Shown one piece after another: positions 33,057 through 38,731 of a stretch of 64,000 nt of DNA; positions within the stretch are counted from its first letter, which is position 1, and every line of letters begins with the position of its first letter. This stretch comes from Acidobacteriota bacterium (GTDB lineage: Bacteria; Acidobacteriota; Terriglobia; Terriglobales; SCQP01): positions 1-64,000 of the forward strand of contig JAJYIU010000007.1 in the NCBI GenBank assembly GCA_021789895.1. The letters are read 5' to 3'. Position numbers and translations under genes: made by a program. The notes below the pieces were generated by a model. The model saw only the letters and a list, made by a program, of their open reading frames with translations, made no database searches and was not told where the DNA came from.

Positions 33057-34886
33057 ATGCAAACTGGCGGGTTAAAGGCCATGTCTGTGGCGGCGGGGTT
33101 GCTGCTGGCCGGCTTGACGGCTTGCAGCCCTGTCCGGCGTCCGCTCCCAGTGGTCGCGCCCCGTCCCGCGCCCCCTCCGCTGCCCGCGCCTCCGCCGCCA
33201 GCCTCGCCGCTGGCCTTCCATCCGGCGCCGGCGCGGCATTTGCAACTGCCCCCCGCGCCGCCGCCCCCGCCGCGCCTCTCCCCGGTGGCGCTCCTGATTA
33301 ACGCCAGCCAGAGAGATTATGCCCGTGGCGTCGAACTCTATCGCCATGGGCGGCTGGACGCGGCCCGCCTGCGCTTTGATCGCGCCGTCACTCGCATTCT
33401 CGCCAGCCCGCTGCCGGTGCGCGCCACTCCGGCGCTCCAGGCCGAGCTCAATCAACTGGTGGATCAGATTCATGCGCTGGAAATGAACGCGCTCGAGGCG
33501 GGCGATGGCTTTACCGCCGCGCGCGAGCACCCCGCGCCCATGGATACGCTGGCGAAACTGACCTTTCCGCTCACCCCCGCCATCCGCGCCCAGGTGGAAC
33601 GGCAGATTCGCAACCGGCGCGGCGAAATGCCGCTGGCCTTGAATGGCCCGGTGATTCGCTATATCCATTACTTCACCACCGCCGGCCGCCAGGAATTGAT
33701 TCGCAATTTCCAGCGCGCCGGCCGCTATCGCGCCATGATCGAGCGTATCTTCCGTCAGGAAGGCATCCCTCGTGAGTTGATCTATCTGGCCCAGGCGGAA
33801 AGCGATTTTCACAATGATTCCGTCTCCAGCGCCGGCGCCCGCGGCATGTGGCAGTTCATGGAAAGCCGCGCCCGCGGTTATGGCTTGCGCCGCAATTGGT
33901 GGATCGACGAGCGCCAGGATCCGGTGCTCAGCACCTGGGCCGCGGCCAGGCATCTGAAGTCGCTGCACGCCGAATTCGGCGACTGGTACTTGGCCATGGC
34001 CGCCTACGATGCCGGGCCGCGTCCGGTGCTGGAGGCGGTCGCCCGCACCGGCTATGCCGATTTTTGGCAGCTTTATCGCCGCCAGGTGCTGCCGCAGGAA
34101 ACGCGCCATTATGTGCCGATCATTCTGGCGCTCGCGCTGATTGCGAAAAACCCGGCGCCCTATGGCTTGACCGGGATCCGGCCCGATCCGCCGCTGCGCA
34201 TGGATACGGTGCGGCTCACGGCGCCGGTGGACTTGCGGCTGGCGGCCGAATGCGCCAATGCCAGCTTGCAGCAAATGCGCCGCCTCAATCCCGACCTGTT
34301 GCGGCTCACTACCCCCAACCTGCCCGGCTTCGCGCTGCATGTGCCTTACGGAGAATCGGCTGCCTTTCAGGCCGCGCTCGATCGCATTCCGCCCGATAAG
34401 CGGGTGGTCTGGCGCTATCATCGCGTACGCGCGGGCGAGTCGTTGCGTGCGCTGGCGCGCCGTTATGCGGTGCGGTTGCGCCAGTTGGCTGCGGTCAATA
34501 ACCTCGATCCCGGACGCCCGCTTCCGCGCGGTGCGCGGCTGGTGATTCCCATTCGCCACCGCACCGCCGCCTTGATTGGCGGGGTTTACCAGGTGCGTCG
34601 CGGCGATACCTTGTATGGGCTCGCCCGGCGCTTTCATCTGCGCCTCTCGGACCTGCGGCGCTGGAACCACATCCGCGGCCATATCTTGCAGATAGGCATG
34701 CACTTATGGCTCCAGCCGCACGGCCGTCCGCGCACCCCGGCGCGGCCCCGCCACTATCGCGTGCGCCGGGGCGACACCTTGGCCGCCATCGCCCGCCGCT
34801 ATCACATCTCCGCCCTCGCCCTGCGCCGCCGCAATCGTTTGCGCAGCGCTCATCTGCGCGTTGGGCAGGTGCTTCGTATACGATGA
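33057..34886 (+). CDS. LysM-containing membrane-bound lytic transglycosylase (MltD-like lipoprotein)
   Basis: 609 residues. A short signal peptide ends in a lipobox (LTAC near residue 23) and a Pro-rich stretch (about 30-90) spans toward the cell wall. The SLT domain (about 215-350) has the catalytic Glu in AQAESDFHNDSVSSAGARGMWQFM and the AAYDAGP loop. Three LysM repeats (about 455-500, 515-557, 562-609; YRVRRGDTLAAIARRYH) bind peptidoglycan. It cleaves murein glycan strands. An ATG at 33081 would make a shorter lipoprotein signal. Starts 4 bp after the HPF-sigma gene. Confidence 0.9.
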   Translation: MQTGGLKAMSVAAGLLLAGLTACSPVRRPLPVVAPRPAPPPLPAPPPPASPLAFHPAPARHLQLPPAPPPPPRLSPVALLINASQRDYARGVELYRHGRLDAARLRFDRAVTRILASPLPVRATPALQAELNQLVDQIHALEMNALEAGDGFTAAREHPAPMDTLAKLTFPLTPAIRAQVERQIRNRRGEMPLALNGPVIRYIHYFTTAGRQELIRNFQRAGRYRAMIERIFRQEGIPRELIYLAQAESDFHNDSVSSAGARGMWQFMESRARGYGLRRNWWIDERQDPVLSTWAAARHLKSLHAEFGDWYLAMAAYDAGPRPVLEAVARTGYADFWQLYRRQVLPQETRHYVPIILALALIAKNPAPYGLTGIRPDPPLRMDTVRLTAPVDLRLAAECANASLQQMRRLNPDLLRLTTPNLPGFALHVPYGESAAFQAALDRIPPDKRVVWRYHRVRAGESLRALARRYAVRLRQLAAVNNLDPGRPLPRGARLVIPIRHRTAALIGGVYQVRRGDTLYGLARRFHLRLSDLRRWNHIRGHILQIGMHLWLQPHGRPRTPARPRHYRVRRGDTLAAIARRYHISALALRRRNRLRSAHLRVGQVLRIR

Positions 34887-34987
34887 TGAGGTAGGCTGGG
34901 ATCCGCTTGACAGCCCGCGGCGTCTGCGGTAAACCCAAGCCTGCGGGCATGCCCCAGCCGGCTGGCCCTCAAACTCGAGGAGGAAGA

Positions 34988-35539
34988 ATGGACAACGAGC
35001 GTTGGCGCTATTTCTGCCAGGAAGACAACGGCGATGGCGATTTTCCGGAAGGCCAGGATTCGTTTTTGGAAGACGACGACGATCTCGATGCGGGCGAAGA
35101 CGATCAGGCGAACTATCCCGCGCCTCCCGCTGCGGCGCCGTCGGTCGCGGAAACGGTGATCATCGAAGAAGAAGAAGATATCGTTCCCGTGGCGACTCCG
35201 GCGCGCAAGCCGCGCGCGGCGCATTCCGCCTCCTCGCGGGCAAAGGCGAAGCCCGCCCCCAAGCCGGCCGCCAGGAAAAAGGCCGCTCCGCGGGCGCGTT
35301 CCAAACGCGCTGCGAAAGCGGCGTCGCGCGGCAAATCGAGTGCGGCGAAGCGTGGTAAGGCCGGACGCGACGCTTCCGCCCGCGCCCGCGGCGGCGCCGC
35401 CCGTGGCAAAGCCGGTAAAGCGCGCGCCAAAGCCGCCTCCGCCCGCGGCAAGAGCGTGCGCAAGGCCAGCCGCGGCCGGGCGGCGAAGCGTGGCCGCGTG
35501 GCGAAGCGTGGCCGTACGGCGAAGCGCGGCCGCAAGTAA
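34988..35539 (+). CDS. Charge-polarised protein: acidic N-terminus, histone H1-like Lys/Arg/Ala tail
   Basis: 183 residues from the ATG at 34988, with GAGGAGGAAG just upstream. Residues about 8-70 are acidic (EDDDDLDAGEDD, VIIEEEEDIVP). Residues about 75-183 are a low-complexity Lys/Arg/Ala/Gly/Ser tail with AKRGR repeats at the end (AAKRGRVAKRGRTAKRGRK). Such tails occur in bacterial histone H1-like proteins and bind nucleic acid by charge. A DNA or RNA compaction role is inferred; it may be a sequestering or self-inhibited form because of the acidic end. The tail composition also makes spurious antisense frames. Confidence 0.72.
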   Translation: MDNERWRYFCQEDNGDGDFPEGQDSFLEDDDDLDAGEDDQANYPAPPAAAPSVAETVIIEEEEDIVPVATPARKPRAAHSASSRAKAKPAPKPAARKKAAPRARSKRAAKAASRGKSSAAKRGKAGRDASARARGGAARGKAGKARAKAASARGKSVRKASRGRAAKRGRVAKRGRTAKRGRK

Positions 35540-35694: not shown

Positions 35695-36213
35695 TTGCAG
35701 GAGAAAGCCGCCGTTATCGCTGAACGCGCCGTGGACTATTCCGAACTCACCGGCGCTTTGACGCTGGGCGAAGGCATTTGGACTGCGGAGCGGATGCTCT
35801 TTGTCGCCCGCCTCGGCATCACGCACATCCTCAGCGTGCAAGATGATTTCGACGATCGCCCGCTGGCCGAGCCATGGGGTATCGAAGTCTGCTGGAACCC
35901 CACGTCCGACGATTTCCAGCCCAAGCCGCCCGAATTTTTTCAGCGCGCCGTCGCGTTCGGCCGTGACGCCCTCGCTTCCGCCACCCATCGCCTCTACGTG
36001 CATTGCGCCGCCGGCGTGCATCGCGGGCCGCTGGCGGCGTTGGCAATCCTGACCGGCTGCGGCATGGCCCTCGATGACGGCTTGGCGCTGATCCAGGCTC
36101 GCCGTCCGGCGGCGGATTTTCCCCCGGTGTATGTGGATTCTCTCCGCGCCTATCTCAGTGGGCAGCCGCCGGCCGTCCCCCAGCCCCTCCCGCAACCGCC
36201 GGAAGAGTCGTAA
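35695..36213 (+). CDS. Dual-specificity/tyrosine-type protein phosphatase
   Basis: About 172 residues from a TTG at 35695; no ATG is in frame upstream, because a stop lies at 35668. A GTG at 35731 is another option, so the start is unresolved. The P-loop is intact: VHCAAGVHRGP fits HCxxGxxR, and Asp in DDFQ precedes it as possible general acid. A Cys-based phosphatase acting on phospho-Tyr/Ser/Thr is expected, though a lipid or RNA substrate is possible. Its stop TAA overlaps the kinase ATG (TAATG at 36211-36215), giving translational coupling with a HipA-like kinase. Confidence 0.75.
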   Translation: MQEKAAVIAERAVDYSELTGALTLGEGIWTAERMLFVARLGITHILSVQDDFDDRPLAEPWGIEVCWNPTSDDFQPKPPEFFQRAVAFGRDALASATHRLYVHCAAGVHRGPLAALAILTGCGMALDDGLALIQARRPAADFPPVYVDSLRAYLSGQPPAVPQPLPQPPEES

Positions 36214-37055
36214 TGGAACGCCTGGAAGCGGTGGAACACATCCGGCCGATGCGCGGCGGAGCGCAGTCGCACCTGCTTCGCGCCGGTGATGGCAACTTTT
36301 ATGTGGTCAAATTTCAGAACAATCCCCAGCATCGCCGGGTGTTGGCGAACGAACTGATGGCAGCGCGGCTGGCGCGCCATCTCGGCCTGCCGGTGCCGGT
36401 CTGCGCGCTGATTGACAGCACTCCCTTGGCCGGCGCGCCCGGCCTGGTCATGCGCATCGGCGGCCAAATGCAGCCCTGCGCCCCCGGCCTGCAGTTCGGC
36501 TCGCGCCTGCCCACCGCCGACCCGCAAACCCCCATCTACGACTTTTTGCCCGATGCCGGCCTCGAATTGGTGGCCAACCTGGGCGACTTCGCCGGCATGC
36601 TGGCCTTCGATAAATGGACCTGCAACTGCAATGGACGCCAGGTCGTCTTTTGCCGTCCTCATCCCCGCCAGCGGCTGCGGGTGTACATGATTGACCAGGG
36701 CTTTTGCTTCAATGCCGGCGATTGGAATTTCCCGGATAGTCCCTTGCGCGGCGTCTATGGCCGCAATATCGTGTATCAAGGGGTGACCGGCTGGGATTCG
36801 TTTCAGCCCTGGCTGGAAAAAATCGAGTCGGTGCCGGCGGAGCTGTTGGAAGCGGTGGCCGAGGAAATTCCGCCGGAATGGTACGGCGACAGCAATGATC
36901 TGGAAGCCCTGTTGTGGCGCCTCTTTGCCCGCCGCGAGCAAGTGCGGGAATTGATCTCGGCGGTGTGGCGCTCCGCCCGCGCCCCTTTTCCGGCCTGGCG
37001 CGATGATGCCGCCGCTGCCGCGCCGGCAGGCTCCGGAGACGGCCCGCCGGCCTGA
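36213..37055 (+). CDS. HipA-like kinase family protein
   Basis: 280 residues. The N-lobe carries VVKFQNNPQHRRVLANELMAARLARHLGLPVP, and the catalytic part FDKWTCNCNGRQ and VYMIDQGFCFNAGDWNFPDSPLRG, as in HipA-like kinases; the catalytic and metal-binding Asp residues are plausible in these motifs. It lacks the full HipA length, and no HipB-like DNA-binding antitoxin is adjacent. The preceding phosphatase overlaps, and a DUF3037 gene begins 6 bp after its stop. Target unknown. Confidence 0.78.
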   Translation: MERLEAVEHIRPMRGGAQSHLLRAGDGNFYVVKFQNNPQHRRVLANELMAARLARHLGLPVPVCALIDSTPLAGAPGLVMRIGGQMQPCAPGLQFGSRLPTADPQTPIYDFLPDAGLELVANLGDFAGMLAFDKWTCNCNGRQVVFCRPHPRQRLRVYMIDQGFCFNAGDWNFPDSPLRGVYGRNIVYQGVTGWDSFQPWLEKIESVPAELLEAVAEEIPPEWYGDSNDLEALLWRLFARREQVRELISAVWRSARAPFPAWRDDAAAAAPAGSGDGPPA

Positions 37056-37061
37056 TGCACG

Positions 37062-37913
37062 ATGTCTGTCAACGGCGCCAAATTGTGCAGTTATTTCCTC
37101 ATCCGGATCGCTCCCGACCCGGTGCGGCAGGAATTTCTCAATATCGGCGTGGCGCTGTTCGATCCGGCCGGCGGTTTCGCCGATCTGCGCCTGGTGCGCG
37201 ATTATCGCCGGCTGCAATGCCTCTTCCCCGGCCTCGATCTGGAAGCCGATTTGCCGCAATTGGAAAGCGCGCTGCGCGAGGAACTGCGCCGGCCTGACCA
37301 GTTGCTGGCCGCCGCCGAGGAAAAATTTGCCCTCGCGCTGCAGTTCACTCCCGCCCGCTCCGTCCTCACCGCCGACCCGGCGCTGGAGCTGGAGCGCCTC
37401 TTCCAGCAGTACGCCCGCCCGCCGGCCCTGGCTCCCGCCGCTCCCGGCGCTGCCCTCTCTCCCCGCCGCCAATTGCAGATCCGCCTCAAAGACGGCCTCC
37501 AGCAGGCCGGCGTGCTCCCTTATCTGAACCCGGAATTTCACGCCGCCCAGCTCGTTGCCAGCGCCGATACTTACCGCTTCGACTATCATTACCGCCCCAA
37601 CGGCGTGCATAAGCTCCTGCATGCGGTTTCGCTCACCGCCGATAGCGGCGCCATCAAGGAGCTGAGCTTTACGCTGACGGATTTGCGCGCCCGGCTGCAG
37701 GCCCGCGGCGTCGGCCTCCATCTCACCGCCGTCACCGAGGCGCCGGAAGAATTCGACTCGAATGAGGGCGAATTGGTCAAAGCGGGCGCAGACGCGGCCC
37801 GGCGCTGGGACATGCATCGGGCCTGGCTGGAAGCTGCCGAAGTCGAGTTGATCGCCGCGCCCGCCCTGCCGCAGTTGGGCGCGCGCATCCGCGCCGACCT
37901 CCACCTGGCCTGA
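37062..37913 (+). CDS. DUF3037 family protein, kinase partner candidate
   Basis: 283 residues. The opening SYFLIRIAPDPVRQEFLNIGVALFD is the DUF3037 hallmark (residues about 8-35), and a Glu/Leu-rich helical body follows. The family is of unknown function. Genes for DUF3037 and HipA-like kinases are often adjacent (from general knowledge of annotated genomes, not checked), suggesting one complex. It ends a three-gene operon after the phosphatase and kinase and runs convergent with the MOSC gene. Confidence 0.78.
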   Translation: MSVNGAKLCSYFLIRIAPDPVRQEFLNIGVALFDPAGGFADLRLVRDYRRLQCLFPGLDLEADLPQLESALREELRRPDQLLAAAEEKFALALQFTPARSVLTADPALELERLFQQYARPPALAPAAPGAALSPRRQLQIRLKDGLQQAGVLPYLNPEFHAAQLVASADTYRFDYHYRPNGVHKLLHAVSLTADSGAIKELSFTLTDLRARLQARGVGLHLTAVTEAPEEFDSNEGELVKAGADAARRWDMHRAWLEAAEVELIAAPALPQLGARIRADLHLA

Positions 37914-38564
37914 TCATTCCGCTGCCGCCCGGGCTACGAATTTTTTCCGCCACGCCCAGGCCAGTGCGTTCAAGCCGGCCAGCTCGCGCGCCGCTTCGCG
38001 GTTCTCCGGCTCGTGGTACATCACCTGGCTGACCCGCCGCATCGTCCACTCCGGCTGCGGCCGCGCTTCCAGCCGCAGCTCCTGCCCGGCTTCGATCTTC
38101 CCCGCTTCCAGCACCCGCAGAAACCAGCCGCTGCGAAAATTCGCCCGAATCCGCTGCTCGATATCTAATTGCTGTAAGTACCGCGCCAGCTTCGAGCAGG
38201 GCTGGCGGGGATAGGACGCCTCCAGCCGGCAGCCGCCCAGGGTGTAGATGTCGCCCACGCAGGCCTCGCCCTCGTCCTGTCCCTCGACCGTTAAGTTTTC
38301 GCCGAAACTGCCCGGCGGCCAGGCGTGCCCCAACTCCCGCTCCCATTCCAAATAATGATGGCGCGCATATACCAGCACCGCGCGGTCCGGGCCTCCGTGG
38401 CCGGGGTGCTCGACCTGCATGTCGCCGCTCACACCCGCGGGTGTAACCATCACTGGCTCGAAAACCGGCTGTTTTCCGCACGCGGTCAACACTTCCAGCC
38501 CGGGCGCGGCGGCATACTGCTGCGCTTGGCCGGTCTGTATCGAGACCACGAGGATGCGAGGCAT
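37914..38564 (-). CDS. MOSC domain protein (YiiM-like)
   Basis: 216 residues from the ATG at 38564. The MOSC fold is visible with GDMQVEHPGHGGPDRAVLVYARHHY and GSFGENLTVEG; the reactive Cys is in SYPRQPCSKL. A C-terminal helical part (3-alpha domain) follows. Such proteins bind the molybdenum cofactor and take part in reduction of N-hydroxylated compounds; the exact substrate is unknown. Divergent from citrate synthase. Confidence 0.88.
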   Translation of the reverse strand: MPRILVVSIQTGQAQQYAAAPGLEVLTACGKQPVFEPVMVTPAGVSGDMQVEHPGHGGPDRAVLVYARHHYLEWERELGHAWPPGSFGENLTVEGQDEGEACVGDIYTLGGCRLEASYPRQPCSKLARYLQQLDIEQRIRANFRSGWFLRVLEAGKIEAGQELRLEARPQPEWTMRRVSQVMYHEPENREAARELAGLNALAWAWRKKFVARAAAE

Positions 38565-38731
38565 AAGGTTGGCGCGCCTGAAAGGATACAGTAATCTATA
38601 AAGTACCCACTCGTGGGGCTGCGCCGCGCCTCGGGGCAAGAGGTTTTCCGCAGAGCGGAGTTTGTAGAAGCGCGGGCGCTTAAATTGATATGCGGCTGAG
38701 CCGCCCCGGCCGCGCAGGAGATTTCAGCAAA

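Follow-up and report, generated by a model that had tools for sequence, protein, structure and literature searches.

This locus raises the question of why a phosphatase, a HipA-like kinase and a DUF3037 protein are encoded as one closely packed operon in an Acidobacteriota genome, and the question was addressed within a 64,000-nucleotide stretch of DNA (the window). The initial annotation proposed a reversible phosphorylation module, possibly a toxin-antitoxin-like (TA-like) system; it missed that relatives carry the kinase-DUF3037 pair and the phosphatase as parts of a phage-derived element, and that the close packing of the genes accompanies the absence of that element's phage genes. On balance, we favour reading the trio as a phage-gene-free relic of an ancient, vertically inherited gene-transfer-agent-like (GTA-like) element of the class Terriglobia, with a co-opted HipAD-like pair. 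The features of the window locus are as follows:

33057..34886, + strand, MltD-like LysM/transglycosylase gene, which anchors the locus on its upstream chromosomal side here and in other families
35695..36213, + strand, DSP-type phosphatase (PRL-like P-loop, HCAAGVHRGP), with a TTG start or a GTG start at 35731
35731..35733, + strand, GTG codon, likely the true phosphatase start, aligned with the ATG start of several relatives
36213..37055, + strand, HipA_2-fold kinase-like protein, with K33, E47 and D161 kept and the catalytic Asp changed to Asn140
36630..36632, + strand, codon for Asn140 in the NCNGRQ loop (HipA D309 position)
37062..37913, + strand, DUF3037 protein, with the DUF3037 domain at residues 11-117 and a PD-(D/E)XK-like domain at about 132-283
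37914..38639, - strand, convergent MOSC/YiiM-like gene, the right edge of the operon

The layout given in the initial annotation was borne out, as the phosphatase stop and the kinase ATG overlap by one base (TAATG at 36211-36215), the DUF3037 gene begins 6 bp past the kinase stop, and a HipB-like gene is absent, with no HTH gene recognised in or beside the operon. The operon itself is real, with its three genes tightly packed on the same strand. The kinase and DUF3037 genes are linked in 71 of 80 genome loci, and the phosphatase always lies upstream on the same strand whenever it is found within about 20 kb of the kinase, so the gene order is not due to chance. The proposed adjacency of phosphatase and kinase likewise recurs in several genera, even where DUF3037 does not stand beside the kinase (G125; L042, L058, L072). 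A promoter and terminator scan of the locus was uninformative in this GC-rich DNA, and NCBIfam gave zero matches for any of the three proteins.

The kinase-like protein matches the HipA_2 family (PF20613) at 35.8 bits (cut-off 27) through its N-lobe; phmmer with the kinase alone found zero PDB relatives, and only structure prediction revealed the fold. Along its length, the predicted model (pLDDT 88) resembles type II PI4K (Z about 15), CtkA (14.8), and also HipT and HipA (up to 12.5), and the HipA/HipT matches at Z 11-12.5 assign the model to a HipA-like kinase fold. The residues K33, D133, N138 and D161 are invariant in a 100-row kinase alignment, and E47 is conserved alongside K33 and D161 in kinase relatives. 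The Asp of the N-x-D loop, at the position of HipA D309, is Asn140 in the window kinase; D309 mutants of HipA are inactive. Position 140 carries Asn in 115 of 128 kinase sequences and Asp in 13, some of the latter being linked to phage genes, and its state changes about six times on the kinase tree. The Mg-binding Asn, five residues beyond position 140, is a hydrophobic residue in paralogues and orthologues alike. Unlinked paralogues, which have neither phosphatase nor DUF3037, keep the catalytic Asp (DRRQ or DGRQ), such as L142:893-1795; L145:7414-8385; L146:6357-7196; L147:5744-6643; and L151:5747-6784. A separate canonical PDC-M66-like pair with a short DUF3037 protein, whose DUF3037 matches exceed 130 bits, occurs in 23 of 60 near relatives and keeps an NVDRTxRN loop in the three examples read (L132-L134). 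Because Asn140 replaces the catalytic Asp, despite the invariant ATP-binding residues, the window kinase is likely a pseudokinase as judged from its sequence, and the designation of 'writer' does not suit a protein whose catalytic Asp is replaced in the window and in most relatives.

The DUF3037 protein matches PF11236 at 59.9 bits (cut-off 22.6). The best structural matches of its predicted C-terminal domain, which has no DUF1829 match in Pfam, are PD-(D/E)XK-type nucleases (BstEII, Z 9.8; Cdn1, 8.2; Can2, 8.1), and since the top matches consistently belong to this nuclease class, they support a PD-(D/E)XK-like assignment, with the proviso that Z near 8 can be background. The idea that the phosphatase substitutes for DUF3037 in loci without an adjacent DUF3037 gene was considered and rejected, as DUF3037 lies elsewhere in the genome in G002, G006, G010, G103, G109 and G145; G125 is the only genome of those loci that seems to be without it.

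The phosphatase scores 33.0 bits against the Pfam DSPc cut-off of 33.5, just under the threshold, and a 20-row family profile matches the PTP4A1 and VHR phosphatases (E about 4e-12). The catalytic H103, C104 and R110, together with G107 and the acidic D72/D73, are invariant in the 20-row alignment, and the residue after the P-loop Arg is Gly or Ala in 20 of 20 rows. An orthologue was detected in 49 of 150 genomes, representing 28 of 43 genera of the order, and is single-copy in all but one genome. The reported lack of an ATG start applies to the window and does not extend to the family, in which several relatives have ATG at the position aligned with GTG 35731, and the suggestion that the missing ATG keeps the phosphatase level low was for that reason rejected as a family feature. 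A same-genus relative has GTA at this position, which makes the use of GTG 35731 as the start uncertain.

A TA-like origin of the kinase-DUF3037 pair, as suggested at first, is supported, since the pair corresponds to PDC-M66 / DS-6 (HipAD), with PADLOC matches to PDC-M66A (2.7e-6) and PDC-M66B (2.7e-11). Pairs of this kind protect E. coli from phage, and DUF3037 is apparently their antitoxin (PMC12548924, PMC13092281): in Retron-Sda1 the HipA-like kinase is needed against Bas51 and the retron parts are not, and deletion of DUF3037 is toxic (PMC12548924), and DS-6/HipAD is an independent defence case in which mutating the predicted catalytic residue abolished defence (PMC13092281). DUF3037, the known antitoxin-like partner, is present here and fills the antitoxin slot, so a phosphatase that replaces the antitoxin is not the simplest reading. 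The initial annotation knew of no description of the three-gene grouping; the kinase-DUF3037 pairing is already known as a published anti-phage pair, and what is new is the addition of the phosphatase, the altered active site and the phage-element setting.

The distribution of the pair was then compared across genomes. Kinase homologues were observed in 59 of 60 near relatives, usually with 50-56% identity outside the window's family, and a DUF3037 match was likewise found in 59 of 60, while a phylum sample of 159 genomes yielded a kinase homologue in only one genome from outside the order, and a similar kinase was absent from 50,697 deposited phage records. The kinase pair thus counts as a core module in the order and neighbouring groups and not as a patchy defence island; its near-universal presence in the order is unlike that of an accessory defence system.

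The phage-derived element was recognised in the relatives at the following positions:

L158:4760-20000 and L173:5134-15500 (G041 contig 5, about 94.7-115.5 kb), GTA-like element of Acidobacteriaceae-type genomes

In the two loci read first (L158 and L161), the kinase-DUF3037 pair stands between the terminase large subunit (TerL) and the portal, with TerL matching phrog_2 (E about 1e-26) and the portal matching PF04860 (E 5.5e-45 and 4.5e-43). The same placement between TerL and portal was found in 37 of 37 genome loci and 22 of 22 IMG/VR contigs that hold both genes. In G041, the genes after the portal encode a 214-aa conserved protein, a protein with a coiled coil, a very strongly conserved one of 323 aa, a head-tail adaptor, other conserved proteins and an endolysin. 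The upstream side holds a divergent S24/HTH repressor together with the phosphatase and a protein resembling a tail spike. G035 and G053 have the capsid block ahead of the terminase, with the TerL-kinase-DUF3037-portal order unchanged. The 323-aa protein, our capsid candidate, has zero convincing matches in Pfam, PHROGs or PDB, and a capsid role is therefore proposed from its position. No integrase or replication genes were found among the scanned ORFs of G041 and G035, several of which have no family match. The IMG/VR contigs with this kinase carry the TerL-kinase-DUF3037-portal order in 22 of 23 cases (L186-L207), and those contigs look like fragments of the host element that were catalogued as viruses. 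In G063 (L221, L222; a single contig), TerL and portal are neighbours but lack the kinase pair, found 3.7 Mb from them, so that pair and element are naturally separated.

The portal was detected in 38 of 60 relatives and the capsid candidate in 37 of 60, one per genome. An E2 acyltransferase/LipB/LPD flank is common to four element-bearing genomes (G041, G015, G035 and G053), which places the element at a fixed chromosomal site, and vertical inheritance at that site is seen in the shared flank, the single copy and the correlated distances. Pairwise kinase distances track those of TerL (r 0.79), portal (0.81), capsid candidate (0.75), DUF3037 (0.85) and phosphatase (0.90), a pattern that co-inheritance predicts but that a shared species history would also produce by itself. 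A description of a GTA in Acidobacteria was not found in the open-access literature searched; one portal was counted in many subdivision-1 genomes by Eichorst et al., who recorded one portal and zero prophage in strain KBS 146 (L101 here) (PMC5900883).

The window locus is devoid of the searched phage genes. There is no TerL, portal or capsid match within the window and no portal or capsid-candidate match anywhere in its genome, and both are absent from all 14 genomes of the window's family; this accounts for the adjacency of phosphatase and kinase. The phosphatase lies within 1.5 kb of the kinase in 12 of 80 genome loci, with phage genes absent in 12 of 12, and loci with both phosphatase and phage genes have tail and TerL genes between phosphatase and kinase. 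The MltD-like gene precedes the element in L158 and the trio in the window, and an MltD-kinase-DUF3037-E2 order without phage genes is present in other groups of the class. Intermediate arrangements were also observed, such as HTH-G219-phosphatase-tail-E2 without the kinase pair (G069, G071, G116); HTH-phosphatase-kinase-E2 (G125); and HTH-phosphatase-3 kb-kinase-DUF3037 (G118). On the kinase tree, loci with and without phage genes are intermingled, with 7 changes, counts that cannot tell gain from loss, and we infer repeated loss of the phage genes.

Other ORFs near the trio were also recorded. An ORF at window positions 31934-33052 matches Ribosomal_S30AE (hibernation factor type) and sigma-70 region 4, an unusual fusion whose position beside MltD is kept in the window's family (L152-L155, L166, L168, L169). 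The ORF at 34907-35539, between MltD and the phosphatase, encodes an acidic N-terminus followed by a Lys/Ala/Arg-rich histone-like tail; in G041, a short acidic ORF also adjoins MltD.

Under the favoured reading, the kinase-DUF3037 pair would descend from a HipAD/PDC-M66-type immune module that was placed between terminase and portal and co-opted there. The HipA-fold protein, with an ATP site and no catalytic Asp, would work as a nucleotide-dependent switch and not as a robust kinase; DUF3037 would hold it, and the C-terminal PD-(D/E)XK-like domain may contact nucleic acid, while the phosphatase would remove phosphate from the pair or its target and so be able to reset the switch. In element-bearing relatives, the switch together with the divergent S24/HTH repressor would time or gate particle production, and in the window's lineage the particle genes would be gone and the switch alone left, serving regulation or defence.

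Other explanations were weighed against these observations. A working HipAD-type anti-phage TA system, with an active kinase toxin, a DUF3037 antitoxin and the phosphatase as an additional safeguard undoing phosphorylation by the toxin, would agree with the PADLOC matches, with the conservation of K33, E47 and D161, and with the published requirement for the kinase in DS-6/HipAD and Retron-Sda1 defence and the toxicity of DUF3037 loss (PMC12548924, PMC13092281). It is nevertheless unlikely, given that Asn stands at the catalytic Asp in the window and in 115 of 128 relatives, that DS-6 lost its defence on mutation of the predicted catalytic residue (PMC13092281), that occurrence in 59 of 60 near relatives does not resemble an accessory system, and that DUF3037 lies apart from the kinase in several genera. 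The reversible phosphorylation switch first proposed, in which the kinase writes, the phosphatase erases and DUF3037 is a substrate or adaptor unrelated to phages, appears highly improbable: Asn140 speaks against efficient writing, two thirds of genomes have no phosphatase gene whereas almost all near relatives have the kinase and DUF3037, and the association with phage genes is strong, against which stand the one-base overlap with co-directional packing, the roughly twelve loci where phosphatase and kinase adjoin, in some of which DUF3037 is not next to the kinase, and the kinase-phosphatase distance correlation (r 0.90).

The order of events can also be reversed, with an ancestral chromosomal phosphatase-kinase-DUF3037 regulatory operon of Terriglobia into which phage structural genes were inserted later in Acidobacteriaceae-type lineages. 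The phage-free MltD-kinase-DUF3037-E2 loci in other groups of the class and the 14 of 14 genomes of the window's family without phage genes speak for this course, which we regard as doubtful: at 59 of 59 loci the pair has phage genes to its left and right in the canonical TerL-portal order, so that coordinated insertions would be needed, and phage-bearing L078 and L090 fall inside a mostly phage-free clade, with phage-free loci nested in phage-bearing clades. Several points nonetheless count against the relic reading, as the phage genes could be later insertions around a host trio that was there first, the MltD-kinase-DUF3037-E2 loci could represent the older state, and the 13 Asp140 relatives, the separation in G063 and the capsid candidate without a match do not favour it.

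A bolder formulation of the relic reading, which we put forward tentatively, is that an immune TA kinase pair was captured between terminase and portal of an undescribed GTA-like element of Acidobacteriaceae and related Terriglobia, became a largely pseudokinase switch controlling packaging or release with the PRL-like phosphatase, and survives as three relic genes in lineages that no longer have the particle genes, such as that of the window. This would link three topics, namely HipA-type immune kinases, pseudokinases and domesticated phage particles. If true, a GTA-like element built around an immune-type module, and without a description in the literature searched, is present in much of a dominant soil bacterial group; it would be the second case of immunity genes serving a GTA after Caulobacter LypABC, an immune system that controls GTA release (PMC13236601), and gene exchange among Acidobacteria via such particles becomes a testable question. 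In addition, annotation as PDC-M66 can extend to core-genome members with an altered catalytic site, which probably do not serve as defence systems.

Among known systems, RcGTA, CcGTA and domesticated prophages resemble the relatives' element in the cluster of TerL, portal, head-tail adaptor and endolysin, in single copy and at the same site; the difference lies in the kinase-DUF3037 pair inside the packaging genes of the relatives' element, and in the window itself, which keeps none of the searched phage structural genes. HipBA and HipBST share the kinase fold (HipT and HipA, up to Z 12.5), whereas the window has no HipB or HipS gene, carries Asn at the HipA D309 position and matches by sequence in the N-terminal lobe only. 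PDC-M66 / DS-6 shares the HipA_2 kinase fold, the DUF3037 gene directly downstream and the lack of HipB; the window differs from it in having Asn instead of an intact catalytic Asp and a C-terminal PD-(D/E)XK-like domain without a Pfam DUF1829 match, and its family differs in a core rather than patchy distribution and in the link to the phosphatase and, in relatives, to phage packaging genes. The phosphatase shares with PRL (PTP4A) the H-C-x-x-G-x-x-R signature and the Ala or Gly after the Arg, where canonical DSP phosphatases have Ser or Thr, and differs from both PRL and DSP enzymes in belonging to a bacterial family linked to a phage-derived element.
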